Origin: a virus | Length of the DNA: 45,320 nucleotides | IMG/VR virus record: IMGVR_UViG_3300009180_002798 | Coordinates: 1 to 45,320 of that record | Reading direction: 5' to 3' (one strand) | Shown: piece after piece, positions 7,043-43,888 of the stretch | Layout: every line of letters begins with the position of its first letter | Position numbering within the stretch: position 1 is the first letter of the stretch | The notes under the pieces: model-generated | What the model saw: only the letters and a program-made list of their open reading frames with translations | What the model was told of the DNA's origin: nothing | Databases searched by the model: none | Program-made: the position numbers and the translations under genes

Positions 7043-7567
7043 ATGACATCAGCATGTAATGACGCCAGTAATCCATTACTAATAAATTATTTTCAATTTG
7101 TAATGGATCGAGTTCCCAACTTGGTTTACTTTTGCCAAAGTGCAAATCTACCAGGTATTGGATTTGGTGTTGTGGATCAGCCAACAACTTTAGGCCATCC
7201 AGTTAAAGTTCCAACCGGAGCTTTTCGTTTTGAGGATTTAGAATTAACTTTTCGTGTAGACGAAAATTTAAACAATTGGATAGAACTTCAAAATTGGATT
7301 GCTACTGCTGGTAACTATTATGATGATTCTAATACTTTGCCGTATTATTCTGATACACCCGGTCAATTGATCAAAACAACAGACGCAACTCTGTTAATTA
7401 CAAACAGTTCGTATCAACCTAAAATTAAAGTACACTTTAAACACGTATTTCCACAATACGTAAGTGGAATTAATTTTGTGGTAAACGCTCCAGTTTCTAC
7501 CGAAGCAATTGCCACAGTTAAGTTTGCACACACAGGATATACTATAGAACGACTTGAAACTCCGTAA
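7043..7567 (+). CDS. Tail-tube-like virion protein (gp19-family-like)
   Basis: Encodes 174 residues. The run FQFVMDRVPNLVYFCQSANLPGI, then TFRVDENLNNWIELQNWI, and a C-terminal half of beta strands (DATLLITNSSYQPKIKVHFKHVFP) is a pattern I associate with tail-tube and tube-associated baseplate proteins of marine T4-like phages. In cyanophages the slot between gp23 and uvsY often holds a tail gene. It is probably a second tube-fold protein (a gp54-like baseplate-to-tube adaptor, or similar) rather than the main tube subunit encoded at 161-823. It has no ribosome site; the CATAAATA box ends 5 nt before its ATG. Virion role is fairly secure, exact identity is not. Confidence 0.8.
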   Translation: MTSACNDASNPLLINYFQFVMDRVPNLVYFCQSANLPGIGFGVVDQPTTLGHPVKVPTGAFRFEDLELTFRVDENLNNWIELQNWIATAGNYYDDSNTLPYYSDTPGQLIKTTDATLLITNSSYQPKIKVHFKHVFPQYVSGINFVVNAPVSTEAIATVKFAHTGYTIERLETP

Positions 7568-7581
7568 TTTTGGTGTATAAT
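7554..7581 (+). promoter_or_regulatory. Sigma70-like promoter for uvsY
   Basis: TTGAAA at 7554-7559 and a perfect TATAAT at 7576-7581 are separated by 16 nt. A start 7 nt after the hexamer falls on 7588, the A of the uvsY ATG, so the transcript would be leaderless. There is no good Shine-Dalgarno sequence. The promoter overlaps the end of the preceding virion gene and marks the switch from late genes to host-polymerase-read replication genes. Confidence 0.7.
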
Positions 7582-7587
7582 AATATT

Positions 7588-8022
7588 ATGAACCTAGATG
7601 AATTAAAAATAATGATTAAAAAGGATCTGGATATTGATCAAACTGCTCTTGATGTAGAGTCTTCCAGAACTCCTCAACTTCACAACAAATATTTGGTAAT
7701 GTTTATGGATGAAAAGTTAAAGCTAAAACGAATGAACAATGAGCTGTCTGTTCTTCGTAGAAATAAATGGCTTTACTATACTGGTCGAATGAGTCAAGAA
7801 GAGTTGACTCAGTTTGGTTGGGAGCCGTTTGAATTAAATATTTTAAAGACTGAAGCCGATGATATGATTGAATCGGATGCAGACTACATCAAGGCTTCTG
7901 AAAAGGTTAACTTTCAGGAAGAAAAAGTTAATTATCTGGAGAGTGTAATTAAAATTGTACAAAATCGTCAATGGCAAATCAGAGCCATGATTGACTGGTT
8001 GAAGTTTACCCAAGGAGTTTGA
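7588..8022 (+). CDS. uvsY: Recombination mediator UvsY
   Basis: Encodes 144 residues (T4 UvsY is 137). UvsY loads the UvsX recombinase onto ssDNA coated with gp32, for strand invasion and recombination-dependent replication. The sequence is helical and charged throughout. It begins MNLDELKIMIKKDLDID, as UvsY begins with a short L-x-E-L-x-x-x-x-K-K-D motif, and has LRRNKWLYYTGRMSQEEL, matching the Y-Y-S/T-G-R segment of T4. I choose the ATG at 7588 over an upstream TTG at 7570, because the promoter geometry and family length fit it. It is directly followed by uvsW, as in related phages. Confidence 0.88.
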   Translation: MNLDELKIMIKKDLDIDQTALDVESSRTPQLHNKYLVMFMDEKLKLKRMNNELSVLRRNKWLYYTGRMSQEELTQFGWEPFELNILKTEADDMIESDADYIKASEKVNFQEEKVNYLESVIKIVQNRQWQIRAMIDWLKFTQGV

Positions 8023-9552
8023 TTGGCAGATATACGTATCACACAACCTGATGCTGTCGATTTAAAGGTCGAGTGTGATCGTTCTTTAGCCAGAGAACTA
8101 AACGGTTATTTTACGTTTACTGTTCCAAATTTTCAATACACCCCAGCTTTTAAAAAGCGTCTTTGGGATGGAAAAATTCGTCTTTTTAATCTGTACACCC
8201 AGACTATTTACGCAGGTCTCACAGACCTTGTAATTAAGTTTGCCAAAGATCGTGGGTATACTTGGGAGCATGTTCCGGTTCCATACGATACCCCGAAGCC
8301 AGAAGAAGTCAAGCAATTCATTCAAAGTTTGCCACTCAGTGCAGGCGGTAAACCCATCCAACCTTACGATTACCAGGTAGAGGCCGTCCAACACGCTCTG
8401 AATCGATCCAGAGCCCTCCTAGTGTCTCCTACAGGCTCTGGTAAGTCCATGATGATCTACCTACTGTGCCGTTGGATGTTAGATAAGAACCCAACAGGAA
8501 AGCTACTCATAATTGTTCCAACCACCAGTCTGGTTGCTCAGATGTTGGCAGATTTTCGGGATTATTCTAAACAAGACTCGTGGAAGGCAGATCGAAACAT
8601 CCATACAGTAATGTCTGGAAAAGATAAAACTTCCACCAAACGAATAATTATTTCTACTTGGCAAAGTATTTACAATCAGCCGTTCACCTACTTTGACGAT
8701 TTTATGGGAGTGTTTGGGGACGAGTGCCATTTATTCAAAGCCAAATCTCTTGCGTCCATCATGAGCAAAGCTAAAAAAACCAAATACCGTATAGGTACAA
8801 CCGGTACTTTGGACGGCACACAAACCCACAAACTGGTTATTGAAGGATTGTTTGGACCAACATACCACACAACCACAACCAAAAAATTAATTGATCAAGA
8901 CTTACTTTCACAAATTAATATTGATTGCTTACAACTTCAGTACTCTCCAGAAGACATTCAAACAACAAAAAAGATGACTTACGTGGACGAGATTCGTTGG
9001 GTTGTAAGTAATTCCAGACGCAATCAATTTATTAAAAACCTGTGTAGTAAGCTGACAGGCAATACTTTAGTTCTTTTTAACTTTGTGGAACTGCAAGGAA
9101 AGCCATTACACGAAATACTACAAAAAGATTCCACAAAACCGGTTTACTTTATTCACGGTCAAACTGAAGTAGACGAACGCGAACAAATTCGTAAAGCGGT
9201 AGATAAAGGATCAGATTCGATATTGTTAGCTTCTTACGGAACTTGTAGTACTGGTATCAATATTAAAAATATTCACAACGTAGTTTTTGCTTCTCCATCT
9301 AAATCTATAATTCGTGTTTTACAGTCTATTGGTCGTGGATTGCGAAGAAGTGATACTAAACAACAAATGAAATTATTTGATATTGCAGACGATCTGCGTT
9401 ACAAGAGCTACACTAATCACGGAATGAACCATCTTGGTGCCAGACTAAAAATATATACTAATGAGAGATTTCCGTACAAGTTAATTTCTATTCAGTTACC
9501 AAAGGAGTCCAATGAGAAAAACATACAAGATACTCAAAATGAAATCGGGTGA
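8023..9552 (+). CDS. uvsW: Recombination helicase UvsW
   Basis: Encodes 509 residues (T4 UvsW about 503). It is a superfamily 2 DNA helicase that remodels R-loops, branched DNA and stalled forks and helps switch replication to the recombination-dependent mode. The Walker A motif SPTGSGKS spans residues about 135-142, motif II is D233-E-C-H236, motif III is GTTGTLDG, and the C-terminal motif VI is QSIGRGLRR. The N-terminal 100 residues form the small DNA-binding domain (FKKRLWDGKIRLFN). The start is a TTG directly after the uvsY stop, with CAAGGAG correctly spaced. The 3' end overlaps the next gene by 41 nt. Confidence 0.96.
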   Translation: MADIRITQPDAVDLKVECDRSLARELNGYFTFTVPNFQYTPAFKKRLWDGKIRLFNLYTQTIYAGLTDLVIKFAKDRGYTWEHVPVPYDTPKPEEVKQFIQSLPLSAGGKPIQPYDYQVEAVQHALNRSRALLVSPTGSGKSMMIYLLCRWMLDKNPTGKLLIIVPTTSLVAQMLADFRDYSKQDSWKADRNIHTVMSGKDKTSTKRIIISTWQSIYNQPFTYFDDFMGVFGDECHLFKAKSLASIMSKAKKTKYRIGTTGTLDGTQTHKLVIEGLFGPTYHTTTTKKLIDQDLLSQINIDCLQLQYSPEDIQTTKKMTYVDEIRWVVSNSRRNQFIKNLCSKLTGNTLVLFNFVELQGKPLHEILQKDSTKPVYFIHGQTEVDEREQIRKAVDKGSDSILLASYGTCSTGINIKNIHNVVFASPSKSIIRVLQSIGRGLRRSDTKQQMKLFDIADDLRYKSYTNHGMNHLGARLKIYTNERFPYKLISIQLPKESNEKNIQDTQNEIG

Positions 9553-10219
9553 AGAAATTATTGCAGACGTTCGTAAAACTAAAGACGGCCAACTTCGTCT
9601 TCACCGACCCATGGTTTTTAAGAGTATGGTTTCTTCTGATTTATTCGGAGGCATGCGAGAAATCTTTATGTTAAAAAATTGGTTGATTCTTTCATCTGAA
9701 GTAAAAACACTCATTTCACCAGATACGGTAAATGCAATTTTAGAACCAACAAAAGAAGCAAGTAATTTATACGATGCAGAAAAGATTAAAGAAGATTTTC
9801 GTTTTAATGGTGTGAAAGCAAAACGGAAAGAACCACTTTTACCTCCTCCAAATTTACCTGAAATAAAGGATCAATCTGATAGCTTTTTAGACAATCTTCA
9901 GAAGAAATTAGAGGATATGATGACTAATTTAAACGATCCTGTTGAAAATGAATCTAGCTTAAAAGATCTTGCAAAACCTCGTTTTGATGATAAAATGATA
10001 TTCATGAACATGGTCTTTTCTCCCGAAGTTATCGTTGAACTTCTTCGCTCAGGAATACTTGATCGAAAAGATTTTGGTGAAATGATTAATGAAATAACCG
10101 ATGAAAATGGTGAGGGCATGAACCCTAACAAATTCACCGGTGACAAGAAGGAAAATAAAAATTTGGGTAATGAGTGGACGGATTGGAATGCTGATCCGTC
10201 TTCTGAGGACTACAAGTAA
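9512..10219 (+). CDS. Unknown protein with possible LSm-like N-terminal domain
   Basis: Encodes 235 residues. The first 60 residues (YKILKMKSGEEIIADVRKTKDGQLRLHRPM) have the strand pattern of small Sm/LSm-like beta-barrels found in phage proteins near uvsW. The resemblance is weak and offered as a suggestion only. The middle and C-terminus are charged and partly low-complexity (PPPNLPEIKDQSDSFLDNLQKKLEDMM), including DKMIFMNMVFSPEVIVELLRSGIL. The C-terminal 40 residues look disordered. The ATG at 9512 lies inside the end of uvsW in another frame, preceded by AAAGGAG, so the overlap is real. No function can be assigned. Confidence 0.85.
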   Translation: MRKTYKILKMKSGEEIIADVRKTKDGQLRLHRPMVFKSMVSSDLFGGMREIFMLKNWLILSSEVKTLISPDTVNAILEPTKEASNLYDAEKIKEDFRFNGVKAKRKEPLLPPPNLPEIKDQSDSFLDNLQKKLEDMMTNLNDPVENESSLKDLAKPRFDDKMIFMNMVFSPEVIVELLRSGILDRKDFGEMINEITDENGEGMNPNKFTGDKKENKNLGNEWTDWNADPSSEDYK

Positions 10220-10270
10220 CTAATATTCCTTTTTTACTCAGACAATATATTATATCAGGAAATTTATAGC

Positions 10271-10867
10271 ATGTCAAGTGGAAAACCTAAAAAAGATAAA
10301 TTAAAAATAAAAACAGATAAAACAATAGAAAAGAAATTAGAAAAACAATTAAATAACGATCATTACGTAGACAATAAACAATTTCTACTAGAAATGATTA
10401 AGTGGAAAAAAGAAATAAGAGAAGCTGAAGACAGTGGAGACGATAAGCCCCCGGTTTCCGAATATATCGGAAGTTGCTTCTTAAAGATCGCAGAACGATT
10501 ATGTTCAAAATCCAATTTTATGAATTATCCGTATAAGGATGAAATGATTGGAGATGGAATTGAAAATTGTTTAATGTACGCACACAATTTTAATCCACGC
10601 AAATCCAAAAATCCATTTTCTTATTTTACTCAAATAATCTATTATGCGTTTCTCCGTCGAATAGAAAGAGAAAAAAAGCAAGCTTATATAAAATTTAGAT
10701 TGACAGAAGAGATGAATGATGGTACACTTCACAAGTGGTTTAAAGAAAATTACTTTGATAAATCTAATGAACGTGAAGCATTAACAGAACATTTTAATAT
10801 TTCTGAACGAGATATTGAAAAGTATGAACCAAAGAAACGCAAGAAGCGTAGTAAAAATAAATCATGA
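10271..10867 (+). CDS. gp55: Late-transcription sigma factor gp55
   Basis: Encodes 198 residues (T4 gp55 is 185). gp55 is a minimal sigma-family protein. With the coactivator gp33 and the gp45 clamp it directs host core polymerase to TATAAATA promoters. The diagnostic part runs from MIKWKKEIREAEDSG through CFLKIAERLCSKSNFMNYPYKDEMIGDG. It then reaches AHNFNPRKSKNPFSYFTQIIYYAFLRRIEREKKQ, the degenerate sigma region 2. Both termini are very lysine-rich. The ATG has CAGGAAA upstream. The stop overlaps the gp47 start (ATGA). Its presence agrees with the TATAAATA boxes before gp22, gp23, 27455 and 41507. Confidence 0.95.
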   Translation: MSSGKPKKDKLKIKTDKTIEKKLEKQLNNDHYVDNKQFLLEMIKWKKEIREAEDSGDDKPPVSEYIGSCFLKIAERLCSKSNFMNYPYKDEMIGDGIENCLMYAHNFNPRKSKNPFSYFTQIIYYAFLRRIEREKKQAYIKFRLTEEMNDGTLHKWFKENYFDKSNEREALTEHFNISERDIEKYEPKKRKKRSKNKS

Positions 10868-11901
10868 AAATTGCAGTTATTGGTGATACGCACTTTGGGG
10901 CCAGAGGTGATTCTCCCCTATTCTTAAATCATTTTTTAAAGTTCTTTGAAGAACAGTTTTTTCCTTATCTCAAGGAACATGGTATCACTAAAGTACTTCA
11001 TCTTGGTGATCTGTTTGATCGTAGAAAGTTTATTAATTTTAATACACTACATCACACTAAAAAGCGATTTGTGCAGTGGTTTGAAACTAATGGGGTAGAA
11101 CTGCACTGTATTCTTGGTAATCATGATGTGTTTTATAAAAACACAAATCGTTTAAATTCACCCAAAGAAGTGCTGGGAGAATGCCATACATCGTTCCATC
11201 TTTACGAAGAACCAACAGAAGTATGTTTTAATGGTGCAACCATACTAATGGTTCCTTGGTTGAATGAAGAAAACAAAGAACAGTTTTTAAAAACAATCAA
11301 GGACAGTAAAGCAACCATTTTGGCAGGCCACTTAGAACTCAGTGGTTATGAAGTTATGCCCGGAATAAAATTTAATGAAGGCATGAGTGACAAGTTTTTA
11401 GAAAAATTTGATATGGTGCTGTCTGGGCATTTTCACAGCAAGAGTTCTAAAGGTAATGTTCATTATCTTGGTACTCAATATCAGATGACTAGTATCGATA
11501 CTAATGAGGTAAAGGGATTTCACGTTTTAGACACAGAAACCCGAGAATTGCAGTTCATTCAAAATCCTATGAAGATGTTTCATAATGTGGAGTGGAGAAA
11601 CGGAACGCTGATTGAAGGATTTGATCCTGCACGATACAAGGGAACTTACGTCAAGGTTTTGGTGTACGAAAAGAAAAGCGAAACCAAGTTTGATCAGTTC
11701 TTGGACAGTCTTTACGCAGCAGAACCTGCCAGTGTTAGTATCATTGAAGATCTGAGTGATCGTGTTCGTGAAGAAGGTGAAGTGGATATTTCTGAAGACA
11801 CACTAAGCTTAATCAATAAAGAGATTGACGGTATGGAAGCAGAAAACAAAGAAGAACTGAAGAATATTGTTCGTGAACTTTATATGGAGAGTCTAGATTG
11901 A
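10864..11901 (+). CDS. gp47: Recombination endonuclease subunit gp47 (Mre11/SbcD family)
   Basis: Encodes 345 residues (T4 gp47 is 339). It is the metallophosphoesterase nuclease subunit of the gp46/gp47 complex, which resects DNA ends for recombination and degrades host DNA. The five metal-binding blocks are visible in order: GDTHFGARGD, HLGDLFDRR, CILGNHDVFY, ILAGHLELSG and LSGHFHSKS. The C-terminus is acidic and helical, suited to contacting the gp46 coiled coil. It sits between gp55 and gp46 with overlapping stop/start codons on both sides, as in cyanophages. Confidence 0.97.
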   Translation: MKIAVIGDTHFGARGDSPLFLNHFLKFFEEQFFPYLKEHGITKVLHLGDLFDRRKFINFNTLHHTKKRFVQWFETNGVELHCILGNHDVFYKNTNRLNSPKEVLGECHTSFHLYEEPTEVCFNGATILMVPWLNEENKEQFLKTIKDSKATILAGHLELSGYEVMPGIKFNEGMSDKFLEKFDMVLSGHFHSKSSKGNVHYLGTQYQMTSIDTNEVKGFHVLDTETRELQFIQNPMKMFHNVEWRNGTLIEGFDPARYKGTYVKVLVYEKKSETKFDQFLDSLYAAEPASVSIIEDLSDRVREEGEVDISEDTLSLINKEIDGMEAENKEELKNIVRELYMESLD

Positions 11902-13622
11902 TTAATTTTAAGACTGTTCGTTTTAAGAATTTTGGTTCTTTCGGTAACACATTTACTGAAATAGAACTAGGCAAGAACGCAACCACTTTGGTGTGTGGTT
12001 CAAACGGCAACGGCAAATCGTTTGCATTTCTTGATTCTATTTCTTTTGCGTTGTTCGGAAAGCCATTCCGAAACATGAATATTCCACAACTAGTCAATAG
12101 CATCAATAAAAAGAATTGTGTTGTTGAACTGGAATTCACTGTTGGAAAGACAGAATATAAGATTGTTCGTGGTCTTGCTCCAAAGATGTTTAAGATATTT
12201 AAAGATGGTGAGCTTTTAAATGAAGACGCTAAAAGTAAAGATTATCAAAACATCTTAGAAGAACAGATTATAAGTATGAACCACAAAACGTTTTCTCAGG
12301 TTGTGGTTCTTGGTTCGTCTTCATTCATTCCATTCATGCAGTTAACTCCTGCTGATCGCCGTCAAGTCATTGAAAATATTTTGGATATCGGTATCTTCTC
12401 TGAAATGAATGGCGTACTAAAAACCAAAATTGGTACTGCCAAAGGAGTAATGCAGGCTATTGAGTCTGAACTAGTGCTTGTAAACGAAAAGGTGTCTGCC
12501 ACCAAAGAGATCTTAGAATCTTACCAAAAGAACACCTCAGATCGTGTTGCAGACCGCAAGCGCACTTTGGAAGAAAATACAGAAACTATAAAGAGTATTT
12601 CAAAAGAAATTAAACAACTTCAAAGCGCAATGAAGATCCTGGAAACTGAATTAGAACCAGGAGACCAAATAAATGCCGAACTCAAGAAACAACAGATCGT
12701 GTTGTTTAAACTGGAAAGTACTCTTGAAGGCGTACAAGAAGACATCAAGTTCTTTGAAAAGAGTCAAAGTTGCCCAACATGTAAACAGACCATTAGCAAA
12801 GAACATAAAGAACATGTGATTGCTGAGAAGACAGAAAAAGCCGAAGAACATAAGAATAGTCTGAGCCGAATAAAAGAAGCAATCAATATGTCCAAAAATA
12901 ATCTGAACAAGATGATAAGTGTTCAGAATAAATTAAACGATCTAATCATTAAATCGTCTTCAAAAGAACAAACTGTAGAGTCTTTGATTAAATTAAATCA
13001 AAGGCTAGATGAAGAGATGTTAGCTGTTGTGGAAACTGCTGATACTCAATCCAAGATTCAAGAAAATCAAGATAAACTGTCCGAACTTTTAACCAAACAA
13101 AGCGAATTACTAAAAAAGAAACAGAAAGCTCTTGACACACTTCGTTCTTATGATAAACTGGTATTTCTGTTCAAGGACAGTGGTATTAAAGCAAAAATTG
13201 TAAAATACTATATTCCGTTAATTAATAAGTACGTGAACAAGTATTTGAACAGCATGGACTTCTACGCAAACTTCCATCTAGACGAGGAGTTTAATGAAGT
13301 CATTAAGAGTCGCCATCGTGATGAGTTCTGTTACGAGTCGTTTAGTGAAGGCGAGAAGATGAGGATCGATCTGGCACTGCTTCTGACATGGCGAGAGATC
13401 GCAAAGTTGAAGAACAGTGTCAATACTAATCTGCTTATTCTGGATGAAGTATTTGATTCCAGTTTGGACAGTGGTGGAGTGGATGAGCTGATGAAACTTC
13501 TATCTAGTTTTGGGTCCAAAGCAAACGTTTATGTGATCAGCCATAAAACGGATCAACTGCTAGATAGATTTAATAATGTTTTTCAATTCGATAAGAAAAA
13601 GAACTTTAGTCGTATTGTATGA
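11898..13622 (+). CDS. gp46: Recombination endonuclease subunit gp46 (Rad50/SbcC family)
   Basis: Encodes 574 residues (T4 gp46 is 560). It is the ABC-type ATPase partner of gp47. The Walker A motif GSNGNGKS is at residues 34-41, followed by FGKPFRNMNIPQLVNS. The central region is coiled coil, interrupted by a zinc hook C292-P-T-C295. The C-terminal lobe carries the signature SFSEGEKMRIDLALL and the Walker B strand LLILDEVFDSSLDSGG, then VYVISHK. The start is a TTG overlapping the gp47 stop, preceded by GGAGA. Starting there gives MINFKTVRFKNFGSFG, which aligns with the family N-terminus. Confidence 0.97.
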   Translation: MINFKTVRFKNFGSFGNTFTEIELGKNATTLVCGSNGNGKSFAFLDSISFALFGKPFRNMNIPQLVNSINKKNCVVELEFTVGKTEYKIVRGLAPKMFKIFKDGELLNEDAKSKDYQNILEEQIISMNHKTFSQVVVLGSSSFIPFMQLTPADRRQVIENILDIGIFSEMNGVLKTKIGTAKGVMQAIESELVLVNEKVSATKEILESYQKNTSDRVADRKRTLEENTETIKSISKEIKQLQSAMKILETELEPGDQINAELKKQQIVLFKLESTLEGVQEDIKFFEKSQSCPTCKQTISKEHKEHVIAEKTEKAEEHKNSLSRIKEAINMSKNNLNKMISVQNKLNDLIIKSSSKEQTVESLIKLNQRLDEEMLAVVETADTQSKIQENQDKLSELLTKQSELLKKKQKALDTLRSYDKLVFLFKDSGIKAKIVKYYIPLINKYVNKYLNSMDFYANFHLDEEFNEVIKSRHRDEFCYESFSEGEKMRIDLALLLTWREIAKLKNSVNTNLLILDEVFDSSLDSGGVDELMKLLSSFGSKANVYVISHKTDQLLDRFNNVFQFDKKKNFSRIV

Positions 13623-31060: not shown

Positions 31061-31090
31061 AGTTTATATATACCTGTGGAGATTTAAATA

Positions 31091-32335
31091 ATGCCTAAAT
31101 TATGTCTGTCAATGATCGTAAAGAATGAAACTCACATTATTAAAGAGTGTTTTGATACCGTCTATAAGAATATAGATTATTGGGTGATTGTGGATACAGG
31201 TTCCACAGACGGCACTCAAGAATTAATCAAACAGTACTTTGCAGAAAAAGGCATTCCAGGCGAACTACATGAACGCCCATGGGTCAGTTTCGGTCATAAT
31301 CGTTCAGAAGCTCTGGCTCTTTGTGATGGTAAAGCTGATTGGGCTTGGATGATTGACGCAGACGATTATGTTGATGGTGCTTTATCATTTCCAACACAAA
31401 TAGTAGAAGAAGTTGATGGATTTGCGCTAAAGTTCCGAAGACAAGACTTTGCTTGGTGGAGAACTCAAATCTTCCGTACAGGAAGAGGATGGAAATACTT
31501 TGGTGTACTTCACGAATACCCTTCACTAGAAGGCAAACAACCAAACATCGCAAAACTGGAAGGCAATTACGCAATAGTTGCTCGCACCATGGGTGCCCGT
31601 AATCTTAATATTACTCCGGTAGAGAAGTACAAGAAAGATGCAGAGCTGTTAGAAAAGGCTCTAATAGACGAACCAACCAATGTTCGTTACCAGTTTTATC
31701 TTGCTCAAAGTTATTTTGACTCACAACAATGGGATAAAGCAGAAGCTGCTTACATCAAACGAGTTGAAATGGGTGGTTGGGAAGAAGAACAGTTCTACGC
31801 TGCTTATCGTATAGGTATGTGCCGAGGACTGCAGGAAAAGCCTTGGATAGAAATTCAACAAGCTTTCTTGGAAGCATGGGAGCTTAGACCAACTCGTGCA
31901 GAACCTCTACACCAGATTGCCAGAGTTTACAGACTTATGGGTCATCCTCGTTTAGGATTTCTTTACGCTAAAATGGCAGCAGATATTCCCTATCCAGCAG
32001 ACGATATTTTATTCGTATCTGAGGACGTGTATCAATGGGGTATTTTGGATGAAATTGGGTCAACCGCATTCTACGCCGGTAAGCCTCATATGGGATACGC
32101 AGCCTGTAAGAAATTACTAGTGGAAAATCGACTACCTGCTGATCATGTAGATCGTGTTCAAGGTAACTTGAGTCAATACTTGAAGTTCTTTGAAGACACC
32201 AAGCAAATGGAAGTTATTCATCAAATGAATAATCAAGCCCAAAAACAAAGTGAAAAACGGGATCATAAGCCTGCCATTTTTCCTGCCCAGCTACCAAAAA
32301 AGAAGTTTAAAGACAGAAAAGTAGCAAGCAGATAA
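31091..32335 (+). CDS. GT2 glycosyltransferase with helical repeat C-terminus
   Basis: Encodes 414 residues. LCLSMIVKNETHIIKECFDTV, YWVIVDTGSTDGTQELI and WAWMIDADDYVDG are the GT2 donor motifs (D-T-G-S-T-D, D-A-D-D). From about residue 185 the chain turns into TPR-like helices (VRYQFYLAQSYFDSQQWDKAEAAYIKRVEM and similar pairs), then a basic end. This fusion is common among enzymes modifying proteins or surface glycans. Its codon use is closer to the core genes than to the AT-rich cluster before it. GTGGAG serves as ribosome site. A TATATATA nearby is a weak promoter candidate at best. Confidence 0.92.
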   Translation: MPKLCLSMIVKNETHIIKECFDTVYKNIDYWVIVDTGSTDGTQELIKQYFAEKGIPGELHERPWVSFGHNRSEALALCDGKADWAWMIDADDYVDGALSFPTQIVEEVDGFALKFRRQDFAWWRTQIFRTGRGWKYFGVLHEYPSLEGKQPNIAKLEGNYAIVARTMGARNLNITPVEKYKKDAELLEKALIDEPTNVRYQFYLAQSYFDSQQWDKAEAAYIKRVEMGGWEEEQFYAAYRIGMCRGLQEKPWIEIQQAFLEAWELRPTRAEPLHQIARVYRLMGHPRLGFLYAKMAADIPYPADDILFVSEDVYQWGILDEIGSTAFYAGKPHMGYAACKKLLVENRLPADHVDRVQGNLSQYLKFFEDTKQMEVIHQMNNQAQKQSEKRDHKPAIFPAQLPKKKFKDRKVASR

Positions 32336-32349
32336 ATGATACATATTGT

Positions 32350-32757
32350 ATGGCAGCACAATACGATCTTGATGTAAATAAAAATTGTAATTTAAATACT
32401 TGGATACAGTATCTTTCTGATACTGATGTGGGTGTAGATCTTTCTAGTTATCGAGCAGAACTCAAAATAGAAAGATATAAAACTGCCACTTATCCATTAG
32501 TTTTTGCCAGTACAAATGGCGTAACTTACGGTTACACCGGTGCTAGTTCTCCTGGTACTGGAGCTCAATACGGAGGCATTCAATTAAATGTTAATTACAC
32601 AGGTGCATCTTTAAACGGTGGTATACTAATAGAATTAGATAAAGACACCACTAATTCATTGCCTGTTGGAAAATTATTTTACGATTTAAAACTTCTAGTT
32701 GGTTTAACTTACTCTGAAAAACTACTAGAAGGCAGACTTCAAGTAAATCCTGAATAA
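32350..32757 (+). CDS. Small beta-sandwich virion protein of the tail/fibre region
   Basis: Encodes 135 residues of alternating strands. YDLDVNKNCNLNTWIQYLSDTDVGVDLSSYRAELKIER, then LIELDKDTTNSLPVGKLFYDLKLL and LLEGRLQVNPE, follow a pattern frequent in small proteins at the head of phage fibre gene clusters. The pattern is an N-terminal 'YDL...G....W', S-Y-A-E/R-x-x-I-R, and a final 'LLEG...V.PE'. It probably connects fibres to the baseplate or contributes a coat domain. The ATG at 32350 has no ribosome site; GATAAATG 11 nt before it is a poor late-promoter match. Confidence 0.75.
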   Translation: MAAQYDLDVNKNCNLNTWIQYLSDTDVGVDLSSYRAELKIERYKTATYPLVFASTNGVTYGYTGASSPGTGAQYGGIQLNVNYTGASLNGGILIELDKDTTNSLPVGKLFYDLKLLVGLTYSEKLLEGRLQVNPE

Positions 32758-32766
32758 GGAAACACT

Positions 32767-33006
32767 ATGAAGCTAAAAATTAAACAGACTGAAAAAGATA
32801 TTAAAGTTTTACTAAAACAATTTTTAGTAAATGATGTGTACTTTATGTACATTAAAAATGTAAATAAAAATTTAATACTATCTACTCAAATAAATCCTCC
32901 ATCACAACAAGGAGAACAATATTATTTTGGGCCACCAGACGTACCTCCAATCGACTTAAATAGACCAGTAGACATTGAAACCGATATTATACCAAATCCT
33001 ATTTAA
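32767..33006 (+). CDS. Small unknown protein before the giant adhesin gene
   Basis: Encodes 79 residues of unrecognised function. The first half is basic with hydrophobic strands (LKIKQTEKDIKVLLKQFLVNDVYFMYIKN), the second is proline-rich (INPPSQQGEQYYFGPPDVPPIDLN) and ends acidic. The first five residues, MKLKI, recur at the start of the next, very large protein. A good AAGGAAA ribosome site precedes the ATG. It could be a small attachment or chaperone protein for the adhesin; only position supports this. Confidence 0.6.
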   Translation: MKLKIKQTEKDIKVLLKQFLVNDVYFMYIKNVNKNLILSTQINPPSQQGEQYYFGPPDVPPIDLNRPVDIETDIIPNPI

Positions 33007-33012
33007 TTTAAA

Positions 33013-36000
33013 ATGAAATTAAAAATATTACAACAATATTATCAAACAACACCAGGAAATAAAGTATTTGATTCTGGTAATTTGATTTCATTTAAAATTA
33101 AAAAAAAAATAAAGTATAAAATATTATTATTTTCTGGAAATTTAATTAATACTTTAGGACCAGCTTATATTCCAAATGGAATATCAGCAAGTTATGGTAG
33201 TTTTGAAGACAAAATAGGTATTCAGTGGAATAATATACCAACAGTAACTGGTTATAAAGTTTTTAAAAATGACACCACATTGTTGGGAACAGTTTTTACT
33301 AATAGTATTTTTGATACTGTTTCTTCCCCTGGTATCTTATTTAAATATAATGTCACTTCTTTTATTACACAAAATGGATTTACTTTAGACAGTAATTTTA
33401 GTAATCCCGCTTATGGTTGGAGAGGATTGACAGCTCCAAACAATCTCACGACATCTGGTAGTAGTTTTCTTGATCGTGTTATCTTGAGTTGGACTGGTGT
33501 AACCGGAGCAACCGCTTATAAATTGTATCGATACGATACTTTAGTTGCTCCTCAAACCCTTTCGTTATTGACAACAACAACCAATAACAGTTATACAGAT
33601 TTTGCTGTGTTAGCTGGAAGAACATACATTTATGGTGTAAAATCTTCTTGTGGATTAGGAGACAGTCCTTTTGGATTGACTGCTATGGCTGTATTGTCTA
33701 GAGGAGTTATAGCTGCTCCTTCTGGTGTTTCAGCATCAGACGGCGTATATACTGATCGAGTAGATATAACATGGAATAGTGTTGCTGGTGTGAGTGGTTA
33801 TAAAGTTTATAGAGATCTTCCTACACTACAAAATATAGCAACTACTACCAGTCAACAATTTAATGATTACGCAGCAACACCAGGGATTATTTACACTTAT
33901 TATGTCACAGCTTACGATTTGTTGCGTGGAGAAAGTGTTCCCAGTTTATCGGATACTGGTTCTGTTGGTTTTATTCCAGTAGTGTCTGCAGTTACACCAT
34001 CATACGGAATAATTAGTGGTGGAACTACTTTAACAATATCAGGAAATTATTTATCAAATACACAATCGGTTACTATTGGTGGTATTACTGCCACAATAAT
34101 TGCAAACACAATAAACGGAATAACTTTGGTAACTCCTGTTGGTTTAACAGTTGGTCTTAATCCAATCACAGTAACAACCATACCTGGTTTCACTACGGCT
34201 TCCGATCTTTTTGCGTATTCTTACGGTGAGGTTCTACCAGATTCACTTTACCAAAGCATGAAGACGTTTGCGGATACACACGTTAGTGATCTGTACACAA
34301 TAACTGCACCTAAAAAACGAACTACTGGAGTATTAAATTATACATACGCCGATATTACATCAACTGGAGTATTTCGTCCAAAATCAACAGGCAGATTAAC
34401 TCCATGGACAGGAAATATTTCTTATTCTGGTGCTGGTATCGGTTCGGTGATTGCAGGATTGACTGCTATAGCTGGTGCCTGTGCAACCACAACATATAAT
34501 TTATACAATAATTTTACTAATATAAATTATTCATACGGATTATTGAGCAGTAATAACACTATTGTTGAATCAAGACTGTTTGGTTTTACTTCTGGTATAA
34601 CTGGTGGTAAAAATTTAATAAAACGACCGTATTCGTTTAATGATATACAATTGTATGGTATAAGCACTATAAATCCACTATACGGCAATTACGTTCCATC
34701 TAGTACATACAATAGTACTACATCTTATAATCTTGTAAGAAATAAACTGCTTGCAGTTTTAGAAGAAATTGATGCCACACAAGTATATCCAGTTCAAACG
34801 TATCTAAAAACTCTAGCAGTTGCTTGGAAATACCAACGACAAATTTTACAAAATAATGGAGGCATTGTTTCTGGTATCAAATCTTCCATCAATTTAGACG
34901 CATTAAACACAGAAATTTTAAACAATTTAAAAATACTTTTAGCAGAATATAGATCACACTACCCATTGGCAAGAAGTGGTAATGGTTTATCTATTTCAAA
35001 CGGCGGAAATTCTTCAAATGAACTTTGGAGATTAGCAGCAAACGAGAATTATCCAATGGGCTTGTGTGGTCCTGGTGTTCGTCAAACACCGTTTCCACTA
35101 GGTGCTACTTTAGATTACATTAAAGCACAGGGAGTCACTTTAAATACTTGGTCACCACAGGGATGGTCTGCAGATACTGGCATGTATTTGTATGACGGCT
35201 GGGCACTTGAAGGTCTTCTTAATATTATGCATAATATGTTGGGAGCAACTTCTAGTGTTGATCCTGTGGTTTCGCCAACAACACTATTAACAGATGCTAG
35301 TTGGGGACCAATATTGAATGATGTTAGAAACTTGTTTGTTAAAGAAATTTTTGATGGTGTGAAACACACAGAAGAAGGAAGACCTTGGTATTGCACCAGA
35401 AAGTATTGGCCAGACGGTACCCCTAAAGACGCTTACGTTTATCCTGATGGAGTTGCAGGAAGTACATGGGGAGAACCTGGTACTAGCAGAACTGGGACTA
35501 AATGGTGGTATAATACGTATAAAGTTGGTGGTGGTTATTTTTATCCTGATCCTGACAATAAAGGTTATATTACTTCTAATCAAAATATAACACCTGCTGC
35601 AAACAGAATGTTAGCAGCAATGTACGTTTATCCGTACGCAATAAACGACACACAACGACAAGGATTGCTTGCAGCTTATAACATGTGGGCAGAAACGTGG
35701 GCATCGTGTTTAGAACGCATGTTATATGGTTGTACAAGCGCAGATCAAACCGGATCTTGGCCTGAAGGATGGGGTTACGCAGCTCAATCCATGCCTGACT
35801 TTATTAAAGTTTTAGACGCCACTAAACGCGCCGGAGACCGACGTTTATGGGATACCGGAAACACACCAGATTATTTTAACACAAGTGTGCCCGGTATTTC
35901 GTATGGTGCATGGGTTAATAACGCGTGGAAGTGGATTATTAGCCGCATAATGCCAAACAATTTGATAATTAATTTTGGTTCTTGTAATACTGCAGGATGG

Positions 36001-39000
36001 GAAACCACACGAAATGGATATCAATTTTACCCTTACGGAGTATTATTACAAGCTGCACTAGTAAGTGAAAGTCCTACTCCTGGAACCACTGGATCTGCAA
36101 TTTCTGAATTATACAATTGGTTTATTAATGCAGCACAAGATTCAGAAATAGACGCTCGTTATTATTACGAGATGAAAAAATATAATGATCGTGGTCAGAT
36201 AAACGATAAGGTACTTCTACCTTGGGGTTATTTTGCCGGAGAGAATACGTTTGTTTGGAAGTCTGAACATGTTATACCACGATTTCATTCTAATTTTTTA
36301 ATTGGTACACTCGCTGGATGGAACTCAGACACAACTCCACAAACAAACAATAATTTTGATAAACCGTTGATATTTGGTATTTGGGGTAAAGGTGTTAATG
36401 GTCGAGACGAAAAAACAAATTCAGATAGTGGTCATATTTCTGCGTATCTGGGTGATGCTGTATTATTATTAGAAGCGGGTGAACCCAGAGCATTAATTCA
36501 AGGTTCTGGCTCAAATACGGCCACACAAGAATATTTCTTAACAGATACAATCAGAGCAAAAGGTCACAATAAAATGCAGCTAGGTGAGAGGAAAGATTAT
36601 AAGATACCTCAAACTTGTCCGTGGTCTGGTGTAACATTTACCAGCACTGGTGGTTACGCATTTATTGATCTGCTCCCAACTTATAATACTAGAGGATTAA
36701 CTGCTCGACAATACGGATGGGCAGAAAGCGTACCAGGTTGGGTTGGTCCAAGTGATAGTTATCTGTACGGATGGGGAGGTCCACCAAATTCTACAGCAAG
36801 AGGTGGTGATACTGGATGTTATTTGTCTCACGGAACTGATTTAGTACCAACATATATTGCACCAGAAGGACTCACTTATCAGTTTGAGCCGTATCAATAT
36901 CAGATAGGAAAATGCACACGAGGTATTACTTGGTCGTATTCTGAAGGATCTGCAACCATTCAAATTGAAGACGTTGTTGGTATCAGTGCGTACAATCCAA
37001 TTTATCCTGGTGCTTCATGGTCTGCAACAGGTCCGTACGCAACAGGACCGGCCAGCAGAGTATATTACCGATTCCATGTTGGTTACACTGGAGCCAGTGC
37101 TGCAAACACGTTCCCATTACCAAAAGAAGGAACAGACACTGGCCTTACTTTATATCCAATATCTGGATCAAACAATAAAACTTGGAATGTTGCTTGGTCA
37201 CAACCAATTCCATATAATAAAAACAGTGTTGGTGTAACTTATAGTGGTGTTGATGTATTAATGACATTGACCGGCAATCAACCAATTCGACTACAACGCG
37301 AATTAACAGTAAATAATTCGTTTAAATACGCTTATACGGCTGTTCCTGGGGTAGGAGCAATACCACCAAGTCGCCATTACGCAATTAATGTGATGTTAGG
37401 AACATCAGGTGGTTCTTACTATGATGAAAACAATTTAAAATTAAACACAACATTAAGCGCAATTGCAGTAGCTATAACACCTGCAGTATATGTTGCGTAT
37501 TGGGAACCTTGGATTGGAAGTACATCATTGTCTCATATAACACCTATAGTGTGGGTAAACGGTATTACTCAAAACAAAAATGAAGCATTCTCTGTGAATG
37601 ATTCTCTGTTTCCAAAAACAACAATTACTGGGTTTACGGCTGTTGCAGACGAGTTTAAGAATATTGCACCAGGTAAACGTGTACTTGGAACTTATCGTTA
37701 CCACTTCAAACATGCTTTCTTGGGTTCTACTTTTGATACAGCTGGTCTGGGATTAACTTACAGTCCTTGGTTTGATGATGCAATAACTAAAGTACAAGCA
37801 GAGTGGAATCCGTGGATAGACGGACTGGTAAGTAATGGAGTAACGTTTGATTATTGGGCACTTGGTATAGAAGATGCTGTTACTTCATTCTCTAATTGGG
37901 GTATACCTGGTCTAAAAAATAGTATTAAAACAACAGAAGCAGAAGTACTAAGAGCAATCACATCAGATGCCAGATTTACTCAATCTAAACACGGAATTAC
38001 AGCATTAAGTACCCAATTACAAGGTGTGAATTTAGATGCAGTATTACAGGGAGCCAATAGTGGAAATACTGCATATTTAGCTTGGAATAATGCTTTGAAT
38101 TCTCTTGGAGTTGCTGGTTTGAATCAAGCATTATGGAATTATACAAAGACAAAAATACCAGGTCTACGAGGCGGTAATGGCGATTCTGTAATTAATCCAA
38201 ATAATCCTGGACCAGATTCAAACGGACATCCACAACCGCTTAGTGCCATATTTGGAACAGCAGCTTCTCCTTATCTGTACGGAGAATTGAGTGGAATATT
38301 AACGTCTTGGTCAATATCAGATTCAGATCCAACCCGATTGGTATTAGGAAATGGTGGACAACAATTACCGTCATCTGCTTGGACTGCATTTGTTGTTGAC
38401 CAACAAGAAACTAGAAGTTGTAAACGCAGTTCTCCGTCCACACCACTACAACCTTGGATAGGCAGTTTTGGTTATGCAGCTTCTAAATATAATTTAGATC
38501 GCAGATATTATTATGAGAATATAACACACACATTCTTATTGGGAGCTGAAATATTTTATCTGTGGAATGGTGGTGATACTTCTCTTACTCCAGCAGAACG
38601 CACAGCACACGGAATTACTTTAAATTCTCATATTGCAAGCTTGAATACTCTATTAGGCGGAAAAGTTCCTCAAAGTAGTAGTTCATCAACAGCAGCAATC
38701 TCATACAGAGATCTTTACGTTACTACAGGAGCTAAACTACACGACTTCAAATATATTTGGAGAACCACATTTAATAATGAAATTATTCAAGCTATAAATA
38801 ATACAACAGGAATAACTTATGCGCTAGGAGGATTGACTTGTGGCATTTGGGATACTTCTACCACAGATATTCCTCCATCATATACTGTTATAACAGAAAT
38901 ACCGGTAATACAAAATTATGCGAGTTATAATTTAACAAATACCACAACTCTTGCATCAACTACTGGGTGTACTACCAGATTTAATGTTCCGACCTACGTG

Positions 39001-39123
39001 TTCCCGTCTTGGGATTACGATATAAAATTAATTCCTGGAATTTCTTTTGGCAAAATAACAATTAACGATTTTAAATATTTACAAGGAATAACTAATCCAA
39101 ACAGTGGAATATCTCCATGTTAA
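33013..39123 (+). CDS. Giant multidomain tail adhesin with lyase-like region
   Basis: Encodes 2036 residues. Three FN3-like repeats lie at about 50-323 (FEDKIGIQWNNIP..GYKVFK, FLDRVILSWTGVT..YKLYRYD, YTDRVDITWNSVA..YKVYRD). An IPT/TIG domain follows at about 324-405 (VTPSYGIISGGTTLTISG). Residues about 410-1130 are largely helical, with GSWPEGWGYAAQSMPDFIKVL. A strand-rich part then begins with DSGHISAYLGDAVLLLEAGEPRALIQ. This order, an alpha/alpha toroid then a beta-sandwich, recalls the heparinase II/III and alginate-lyase fold. Residues about 1490-1890 (VAYWEPWIG, FDYWALGIED, LLGAEIFYLWNGGD) resemble a TIM-barrel glycosidase. It probably binds and cuts host polysaccharide; enzymatic activity is inferred only. 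Confidence 0.85.
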   Translation: MKLKILQQYYQTTPGNKVFDSGNLISFKIKKKIKYKILLFSGNLINTLGPAYIPNGISASYGSFEDKIGIQWNNIPTVTGYKVFKNDTTLLGTVFTNSIFDTVSSPGILFKYNVTSFITQNGFTLDSNFSNPAYGWRGLTAPNNLTTSGSSFLDRVILSWTGVTGATAYKLYRYDTLVAPQTLSLLTTTTNNSYTDFAVLAGRTYIYGVKSSCGLGDSPFGLTAMAVLSRGVIAAPSGVSASDGVYTDRVDITWNSVAGVSGYKVYRDLPTLQNIATTTSQQFNDYAATPGIIYTYYVTAYDLLRGESVPSLSDTGSVGFIPVVSAVTPSYGIISGGTTLTISGNYLSNTQSVTIGGITATIIANTINGITLVTPVGLTVGLNPITVTTIPGFTTASDLFAYSYGEVLPDSLYQSMKTFADTHVSDLYTITAPKKRTTGVLNYTYADITSTGVFRPKSTGRLTPWTGNISYSGAGIGSVIAGLTAIAGACATTTYNLYNNFTNINYSYGLLSSNNTIVESRLFGFTSGITGGKNLIKRPYSFNDIQLYGISTINPLYGNYVPSSTYNSTTSYNLVRNKLLAVLEEIDATQVYPVQTYLKTLAVAWKYQRQILQNNGGIVSGIKSSINLDALNTEILNNLKILLAEYRSHYPLARSGNGLSISNGGNSSNELWRLAANENYPMGLCGPGVRQTPFPLGATLDYIKAQGVTLNTWSPQGWSADTGMYLYDGWALEGLLNIMHNMLGATSSVDPVVSPTTLLTDASWGPILNDVRNLFVKEIFDGVKHTEEGRPWYCTRKYWPDGTPKDAYVYPDGVAGSTWGEPGTSRTGTKWWYNTYKVGGGYFYPDPDNKGYITSNQNITPAANRMLAAMYVYPYAINDTQRQGLLAAYNMWAETWASCLERMLYGCTSADQTGSWPEGWGYAAQSMPDFIKVLDATKRAGDRRLWDTGNTPDYFNTSVPGISYGAWVNNAWKWIISRIMPNNLIINFGSCNTAGWETTRNGYQFYPYGVLLQAALVSESPTPGTTGSAISELYNWFINAAQDSEIDARYYYEMKKYNDRGQINDKVLLPWGYFAGENTFVWKSEHVIPRFHSNFLIGTLAGWNSDTTPQTNNNFDKPLIFGIWGKGVNGRDEKTNSDSGHISAYLGDAVLLLEAGEPRALIQGSGSNTATQEYFLTDTIRAKGHNKMQLGERKDYKIPQTCPWSGVTFTSTGGYAFIDLLPTYNTRGLTARQYGWAESVPGWVGPSDSYLYGWGGPPNSTARGGDTGCYLSHGTDLVPTYIAPEGLTYQFEPYQYQIGKCTRGITWSYSEGSATIQIEDVVGISAYNPIYPGASWSATGPYATGPASRVYYRFHVGYTGASAANTFPLPKEGTDTGLTLYPISGSNNKTWNVAWSQPIPYNKNSVGVTYSGVDVLMTLTGNQPIRLQRELTVNNSFKYAYTAVPGVGAIPPSRHYAINVMLGTSGGSYYDENNLKLNTTLSAIAVAITPAVYVAYWEPWIGSTSLSHITPIVWVNGITQNKNEAFSVNDSLFPKTTITGFTAVADEFKNIAPGKRVLGTYRYHFKHAFLGSTFDTAGLGLTYSPWFDDAITKVQAEWNPWIDGLVSNGVTFDYWALGIEDAVTSFSNWGIPGLKNSIKTTEAEVLRAITSDARFTQSKHGITALSTQLQGVNLDAVLQGANSGNTAYLAWNNALNSLGVAGLNQALWNYTKTKIPGLRGGNGDSVINPNNPGPDSNGHPQPLSAIFGTAASPYLYGELSGILTSWSISDSDPTRLVLGNGGQQLPSSAWTAFVVDQQETRSCKRSSPSTPLQPWIGSFGYAASKYNLDRRYYYENITHTFLLGAEIFYLWNGGDTSLTPAERTAHGITLNSHIASLNTLLGGKVPQSSSSSTAAISYRDLYVTTGAKLHDFKYIWRTTFNNEIIQAINNTTGITYALGGLTCGIWDTSTTDIPPSYTVITEIPVIQNYASYNLTNTTTLASTTGCTTRFNVPTYVFPSWDYDIKLIPGISFGKITINDFKYLQGITNPNSGISPC

Positions 39124-39151: not shown

Positions 39152-41440
39152 ATGCTACCAATAACAGGATTAACAGGAACAGATACGTTTGAAACTTGGT
39201 TTGGTAAAACCAATGAAATTATTAGCAGTTTAAACAGTTCTACCATACTCTCTGTTAAAGATGCCGGAGCAGTAGGAGACGGCGTAACCGACGATACTGC
39301 CAGTATAAAAACTGCATTAAGTAGCGGAAAAAAAGTAATATACTTTCCTAGTGGAACATATAAAGTTACTCAGGGATTAACTCTTCCTGCTTTTGTTTCT
39401 ATATTTGGTGATGGACCAGACGCAACTATTATTGATGGTTCTAGTTGCACTGCTAATGGGCTCGGTTCATATGAAACACATATACGTACTGCAGAAGGAA
39501 CATGGTCGTCTCTGCCTGCCTTGGCGTCTCCAGGAATTACTAAAGGTGACCAAAATATTACATTCGTATCTGCTCACGGTTTAACATTTAATGATGAAAT
39601 TTGTGTGTATAATCCTACAAATTATTCTTGGTCTAAATTTACTTCATACCACAGAGCCGGAGAAGTTCAATTTATTGCTTGGACTCCTTCAACCACAATA
39701 GTTCGTTTACAAGGATCCGCATACGCAAATTATAAATCCACAGATGTTTCTTTATATAAACTTTCAGCTTATACATCATGTTTTATAAAAAATTTCACAT
39801 TAAAGTGTGCTAAACTAGGACCTGTTACTTCTGGACGAGGTGTTCGCGTAAATCAAGGATTAAATTGTATACTAGAAAATGTTAAAGTTGTAAACGTTCC
39901 GTATGCCGGTATTGAAATAAACCAGTCTCATAACGTTTTAGTAAATAATTGTACCGTTCAAGAAGACGCCTCAGACGATTTTGGCGGCGATTACGGATTA
40001 GTAGTTATGAATTCTTCTTCTGTTCTGGTTAATGGTGGATACTATTCTGCGTCCAGACACGCAGTTACTATTGGTGGTGGTAGTGGAGTAGGAGCAGTTC
40101 CAAACAGAAATGTAAAAATTATTGGAACTAGTTGCCATACTTCGGGCGTTACTTTAGATGCTGCTAGTGCTGGGGCATTAGACGTTCATTCAAATGCCGA
40201 ACACATCTTGTTTAGAAATTGTACAATAAATGGAGGAATAGCAGGATTAGGTGGAGACAATGTAACTGTAGAAGGTTGTCATATTGTTGGAAGAGGCGCA
40301 GGTGACTCTTTAATTTACGGTGCCGGATGCAAAGGAACCAATTTTGCAATACACAATAACCACTTGATATCCACTAGAAAAGGCCGATTAAATCGTGGAG
40401 CTTTTATAGATATTGGTGCGCAAAATGACGCTATATCAGATAAAACTTCTGAAGGCGGTATAATATCAATTAAAAATAACACACTTGATTGGCAATACTC
40501 TCCTACTAGTTCTGGTCGTAGAGAAGCAGGAGAAACTGCATCAGATGGTTATTCTTCTTATGGAAACTGGCTATCTATAGTAAATACTGGTACTACAGGA
40601 TATACTGGAGGAGATATTATAATCGATATCCAAGGAAATACTGTTAAAGCACCAAATAATTACCATCAAGGTGGTGCGTATATTCAAGTAACAGGAAACA
40701 CTTTAGATGCTCAATTTAATGTGGTTAATTTTTCTAATAATACTTGTGTGAACGTTGGTGGTGCTGAATTAGACAGTTCATGGGTTTCTGCTAATCATGT
40801 AGTTTTTCAGGGAAATAATATTATAAATTCCGGTAATGTTGGATTGAAAGCATCAGGCGTAAAAAAATCTATAGTATGTAAATCTAATAGTATTAATGGA
40901 ACCCGAAATTCTCCAGCAATTTATTTACGAGGACGGTCTGCCTCTTGGTTGGGATGGAATGGTTTCTGTGAATTTATAGAAGTTTCGGAGAATACAGTTA
41001 ATAATGGAGTATTAACAAAAGATTATACTTTTAATACTGGAACACTAACAGATTATAGTGTGTTTTATTTTGATAACGGTATTTTCCGAGACAATATTAT
41101 GGGATCAGATAATAGAACTTTTATACTTGATGCCAATCGCGGATTTGTTTTAAACGAAACAGTAACGGGAAATAGCTCTAATGCTGTTGCAACTATTAAA
41201 GCATTCCAAGGCATTACTCAATTTGGTATAGGTGTAACAAACAATAGTGGTTCTTTTACTTTAAATGAAACGATTACAGGAAATATTTCTGGTAAAACTG
41301 CCAGTCTTACAGGAATTGCTTCCACTCATAGTTTTGGATCATATCTATTTACTGGAAACAATTTATGGAGTGGTAAAAACGCATGGTGGAGTGGTTTTAC
41401 CTTAACACTTTCCGGCATAACTACTAATAATATTTTATAA
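39152..41440 (+). CDS. Right-handed beta-helix tailspike, pectate-lyase fold
   Basis: Encodes 762 residues. Residues about 33-90 (ILSVKDAGAVGDGVTDDTASIKTAL, KVIYFPSGTYKVTQGLTL, VSIFGDGPDATIIDG) are the start of the pectate-lyase-superfamily beta-helix, as in many phage depolymerases and tailspikes. Repeating coils follow (NCILENVKVVNVPYAGIEINQSHNVLVNNCTVQED, then HNVLF/VVFQGNN-type turns) to about residue 640. A short repeat GFVLNETVTGNSS / SFTLNETITGNISG lies near the C-terminus. It would be a trimeric spike that binds and perhaps cleaves a surface polysaccharide. The ATG follows AAGG at 11 nt. Confidence 0.93.
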   Translation: MLPITGLTGTDTFETWFGKTNEIISSLNSSTILSVKDAGAVGDGVTDDTASIKTALSSGKKVIYFPSGTYKVTQGLTLPAFVSIFGDGPDATIIDGSSCTANGLGSYETHIRTAEGTWSSLPALASPGITKGDQNITFVSAHGLTFNDEICVYNPTNYSWSKFTSYHRAGEVQFIAWTPSTTIVRLQGSAYANYKSTDVSLYKLSAYTSCFIKNFTLKCAKLGPVTSGRGVRVNQGLNCILENVKVVNVPYAGIEINQSHNVLVNNCTVQEDASDDFGGDYGLVVMNSSSVLVNGGYYSASRHAVTIGGGSGVGAVPNRNVKIIGTSCHTSGVTLDAASAGALDVHSNAEHILFRNCTINGGIAGLGGDNVTVEGCHIVGRGAGDSLIYGAGCKGTNFAIHNNHLISTRKGRLNRGAFIDIGAQNDAISDKTSEGGIISIKNNTLDWQYSPTSSGRREAGETASDGYSSYGNWLSIVNTGTTGYTGGDIIIDIQGNTVKAPNNYHQGGAYIQVTGNTLDAQFNVVNFSNNTCVNVGGAELDSSWVSANHVVFQGNNIINSGNVGLKASGVKKSIVCKSNSINGTRNSPAIYLRGRSASWLGWNGFCEFIEVSENTVNNGVLTKDYTFNTGTLTDYSVFYFDNGIFRDNIMGSDNRTFILDANRGFVLNETVTGNSSNAVATIKAFQGITQFGIGVTNNSGSFTLNETITGNISGKTASLTGIASTHSFGSYLFTGNNLWSGKNAWWSGFTLTLSGITTNNIL

Positions 41441-41482: not shown

Positions 41483-43888
<2,406 letters not shown>

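Follow-up and report, generated by a model that had tools for sequence, protein, structure and literature searches.

A modular adhesin with exchangeable modules in a T4-like virus contig and a candidate glycan-active cassette of no detectable family

The DNA analyzed here (the window), a virus record of 45,320 bases, encodes T4-like tail tube, portal, and major capsid proteins, as identified with PHROGs. The major capsid protein is up to 58% identical to those of cyanophages (gp23 similarity). The psbA marker gives no support for a cyanobacterial host because psbA is absent from the related contigs. Downstream of glycosyltransferase and nucleotide-sugar genes, a single ORF on the plus strand (33013..39123) encodes a modular adhesin of 2036 aa, which confirms the large adhesin proposed in the first-pass annotation. 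Its homologue in the related contig L001 has 2041 aa and is 88% identical overall. This giant adhesin is probably used by the T4-like phage for attachment to bacteria. Two further genes follow on the same strand. The first (39152..41440) encodes the adjoining beta-helix spike that had also been claimed, with matches to PF22442 (E 1.5e-22) and to the tail protein family PHROG 13768 (E 6.4e-52). The second (41507..43888) encodes a tail-fibre protein with collagen repeats and an RCC1-like region, according to Pfam and PHROG searches.

In T4-like phages from aquatic habitats, tail fibres and glycosyltransferases are encoded in a hypervariable host-recognition cluster (PMC7029224), and the adhesin locus fits this pattern. 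The likeness to the pelagimyophage and cyanomyophage clusters lies in the T4-like aquatic phage background and in glycosyltransferases located beside variable tail-fibre or adhesin genes (PMC7029224). The window differs from them in that whole modules are swapped inside one adhesin of 2000-3000 aa with conserved ends, and in that neither large module of its adhesin matches a known family.

The adhesin begins with about 45 aa carrying an MKLKI...KIKYKI motif (33013..33147), which is common to other proteins of the locus in related phages. An MK[LI]KI start followed by a K-rich YKI stretch opens otherwise dissimilar adhesin-locus proteins, including those starting at 9803 and 7412 in contig L012 and at 6777 in L001; this recurrent motif is possibly a docking or assembly tag. 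About three FN3-like repeats follow (33160..33972). They fall below the Pfam cut-off in the window, but the homologous N-terminus in contig L005 matches PF00041 (E 2.7e-15), so the FN3 modules named in the first-pass annotation are recognizable through a relative. The IPT/TIG domain was placed correctly (residues 322-402, 33976..34218; PF01833, E 3.5e-9). Next come a middle module (residues 405-1490, 34225..37482) and a C-terminal module (residues 1490-1925, 37480..38787), both without a known family, and a conserved C-terminal tail (38788..39120). Within the middle module, a helix-rich part (residues ~560-1060, 34690..36192) precedes a strand-rich part (residues ~1070-1489, 36220..37479); both assignments come from a periodicity test and a very low-confidence AlphaFold2 model.

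Homologue searches with the middle module returned very little. In scans of viral contigs the sole relative was L001 (92% identical), and a tblastn search of 50,697 phage and 72,556 plasmid records gave nothing better than E 3. The scan of genome contigs found no relative. Genomes in four phyla were also searched and yielded only two Chloroflexota matches (E ~0.001-0.002; the phylum was that of a Caldilineaceae genome), one lying in a 69-residue frame and the other interrupted by stops, and both were taken as chance. Candidate catalytic residues can thus be compared with one homologue at 92% identity. With this single relative the alignment held only two sequences, and AlphaFold2 therefore reached a pLDDT of 26 for the middle module; for the C-terminal module (residues 1490-1925) the pLDDT was 32, too poor to interpret.

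Heparinase II/III-type lyases (PL12, PL15, PL17, PL21, PL33, PL35, PL39; PF07940) have a helical part followed by a strand-rich part, and the first-pass annotation had likened the middle module to these enzymes. The order of helical and strand-rich parts is weakly suggested by our data, and membership by sequence did not hold up. Searches with the whole ORF and with in-frame pieces gave no relevant match for residues 405-1490 in Pfam, NCBIfam, PHROGs, or PDB sequences (only TIG matched), hmmscan of in-frame segments to E 10 found no Pfam lyase, and a PF07940 profile search of the window found no qualifying match. Reference proteins were collected from genomes of one phylum (that of a Rhizobium genome) and comprised 30 heparinase II/III-family and three PL8 proteins. 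Custom profiles were built for a toroid block (Asn and catalytic Tyr motif) and a beta block (HxHxD). On the toroid-block profile the window scored 0.27 (z ~1.3) and was matched or beaten by 36 of 300 shuffles, while ten true members, each left out in turn, reached z 11-27. On the beta-block profile the window fell under the shuffle mean (z -0.9), and left-out members reached z 7-34. Alignment of the middle module by hhalign to a seven-sequence lyase-like heparinase subset was no better than alignment of the reversed sequence. PL8 hyaluronate, chondroitin, and xanthan lyases (PF02278) are alike in their large helical and beta layout, but hhalign against the three PL8 proteins gave a probability of 0.1% with the reversed query as good, and Pfam gave no PF02278 match. 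Polysaccharide-lyase family membership of residues 405-1490 is therefore not supported by these profile and alignment comparisons. Lyase families of similar structure frequently have sequence identities that are low or absent (PMC12088678), and the negative results are therefore no disproof of a lyase. Present evidence does not justify naming the middle module a polysaccharide lyase.

The layout of the middle module was examined through hydrophobic periodicity. Among 15-residue windows, helix-type periodicity dominates in 56% of those before residue 1060 and in 34% of those after it. A contrast equally extreme was seen in 1 of 300 shuffles and in 2.7% of circular shifts, with the boundary at residue 1060 taken from the end of the helices in the very low-confidence AlphaFold2 model. 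This switch near residue 1060 is weak but independent support for a helical-then-strand layout.

Both motifs quoted in the first-pass annotation are present where they had been placed. The GSWPEGWGYAAQ motif (residues 914-925, 35752..35787) retains W.EGWGYAAQ in L001, and it contains Tyr922 (35776-35778), a candidate catalytic tyrosine. Asn864 (35602..35604), 58 residues N-terminal of Tyr922, is a candidate neutraliser, and His1086 (36268..36270), 164 residues past it, is a candidate base/acid; spacing is the basis for both. The residue numbers listed for toroid lyases imply spacings of ~53-63 and 130-166 (PMC12088678, PMC11848413), and the Asn-58-Tyr-164-His arrangement falls inside both bands. 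The search for a Tyr/His/Asn set thus produced a lyase-like spacing, but at a fixed position these bands are satisfied in 18% of shuffles. Of the shuffled sequences, 0.7% contain W.EG..Y and 6% contain a loose version of the lyase tyrosine motif; both patterns were written after inspection of the sequence, which makes these frequencies weak evidence. A forced low-confidence hhalign path pointed to Tyr1003 as another option for the catalytic tyrosine, but this residue was not preferred. The DSGHISAYLGDAVLLLEAGEPRAL segment (residues 1138-1161, 36424..36495) loosely resembles the heparinase II/III strand after HxHxD and is without the His residues of that region. Several of the collected bacterial PF07940 lyase-like members carry HxHxD where the beta domain begins, and a pattern search found this motif absent from residues 405-1490.

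A true toroid lyase like those of PL12, PL15, PL17, PL33, PL35, or PL39 would act by beta-elimination on a uronic-acid capsule or exopolysaccharide, with Asn864 neutralising the uronate carboxylate and Tyr922 and His1086 serving as acid/base. The W.EG..Y motif with the downstream strand motif, the order seen by periodicity, and the Asn-Tyr-His spacing speak for it. Against these stand block-profile scores like those of shuffles when left-out members reach z 7-34, the missing HxHxD, the chance frequency of the spacing, and the lack of a Pfam lyase match, and we consider this reading unlikely. In comparison with heparinase II/III-type lyases, the middle module has a compatible Asn-Tyr-His spacing and a counterpart of the GSxxEGxxY-like motif in the helical part. 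It differs in having no detectable profile similarity and no HxHxD, in its size (~1086 aa, compared with open frames of 529-1099 aa in the collected bacterial proteins), and in being embedded in an adhesin.

Comparison with related contigs demonstrated module exchange in the adhesin, which is variable between close relatives while its flanks are conserved. In contig L001 the adhesin is conserved (87% DNA identity over 31078-39119), but the spike genes downstream are different. Contigs L010 and L005 share 93% DNA identity with the window from 38748 through 43758, a stretch that takes in the final ~125 adhesin residues and the genes downstream. Their similarity to the window is lost upstream of 38748 and returns only before 32892. 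In place of residues 405-1490, the L010/L005 protein carries a beta-helix and RCC1 repeats along with FN3 repeats. In L012 the C-terminal module is joined to another partner within a protein of 1041 aa. The different partners in L010/L005 and L012 indicate that the middle and C-terminal modules are separable, exchangeable cassettes. An alternative is that the lyase resemblance arose by chance in a structural virion protein without relation to glycans. Every sequence test for a lyase was at noise level, as would be expected in that case; the genomic context and the module exchange instead point to host recognition (PMC7029224), and we regard a purely structural protein as improbable.

Other features of the locus also vary. 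The L010/L005 adhesin frame is broken in an A-run just before KKIKYKILL (L010 ~2640-2660), either by a sequencing error or by a real frameshift. The beta-helix spike (39152-41440) is also exchanged: it is near-identical in L005/L010 and L006, and L001 carries two other PF12708 proteins in its place. At the corresponding locus, L012 encodes two more large orphan proteins (7412-9787 and 9803-12928) that match nothing in Pfam or among PDB sequences; inspection by eye marks both as possible beta/alpha-barrels.

Rates of change between the window and L001 differ along the adhesin. The dN/dS ratio of the middle module is 0.09-0.21, whereas residues 1490-1925 have a dS of 0.07 and a dN of 0.065 (ratio ~1.0). 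Synonymous and nonsynonymous changes number 184:125 in the middle module and 19:63 in residues 1490-1925 (Fisher p 5e-9). The middle cassette is under purifying selection, and amino-acid change is faster in the C-terminal module. This marks residues 1490-1925 as a putative faster-changing specificity module. Amino-acid changes in 37480-38787 are grouped in short stretches, and the ratio of ~1.0 could alternatively reflect gene conversion over short patches. Synonymous divergence is ~0.5 over the larger part of codons 1-1275 and mostly <0.1 in codons 676-825 and 1276-1950; this patchiness suggests recent recombination between related phages.

The middle module could also be a non-enzymatic binding or spacer module, with the adjoining spike as the enzyme of the locus. 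FN3 and TIG surroundings are typical of adhesion, the spike has a clear pectate-lyase-like beta-helix, and no catalytic signature was confirmed in the module. A plain binding module would not usually be as long as ~1086 aa or have one half that is mostly helical, and purifying selection on the middle module is strong. We view a non-enzymatic module as possible but doubtful, while noting that a pure binding or stalk role would fit the same data.

Many toroid carbohydrate-active enzymes are hydrolases. The middle module could also be a glycoside hydrolase with a toroid fold, or a carbohydrate-active enzyme of some other non-lyase kind, in either case using acidic residues, for which the same helical and strand layout would be expected. 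Beta-helices account for 85.8% of recognised phage depolymerases in one survey (PMC11326577), which agrees with the statement in the first-pass annotation that most phage depolymerases are of this type. In that DepoScope survey, 984 phage proteins had a polysaccharide-degrading fold, and these included 11 toroids and 10 TIM-barrels (PMC11326577), so a toroid module would be unusual, as the annotation had held, but not unprecedented. These frequencies, ~1% each of depolymerase candidates, are compatible with a toroid hydrolase (PMC11326577); no hydrolase family was matched, and we give this reading little weight. The surveyed toroid and TIM-barrel depolymerases were found via known domain models, and the middle module matches none.

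In our favored reading, with a probability of about 0.55, residues 405-1490 form an exchangeable cassette that cleaves or binds glycans and that a T4-like phage carries in an adhesin for host recognition. The shared N-terminus and the FN3/TIG stalk would present the cassette, whose first half is rich in helices and second half in strands, and which belongs to no family detectable by sequence. The second large module (1490-1925) would follow it, and the conserved tail would end the adhesin. The cassette would most likely contact a host surface glycan and either cleave or bind it. The module layout, the module exchange, and the selection pattern are shown by the data, whereas the position of the adhesin in the virion, its glycan target, and catalysis are inferred. 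For its fold, a carbohydrate-active enzyme composed of an (alpha/alpha) toroid and a beta-sandwich is the single most plausible candidate for the cassette. A bolder version, in which residues 405-1490 represent a new toroid lyase or hydrolase family traded as a cassette in an adhesin with a second, fast-evolving glycan-active module, is tentative and clearly less probable than the favored reading.

Exchange of host-recognition modules offers an experimental opportunity, as a swap of the middle module between near-identical flanks would be a direct route to testing host-range change. If the enzymatic interpretation is true, enzyme searches that rely on known families overlook such modules. A non-beta-helix enzyme cassette traded inside an adhesin would then widen the set of folds to seek in phages of this type.
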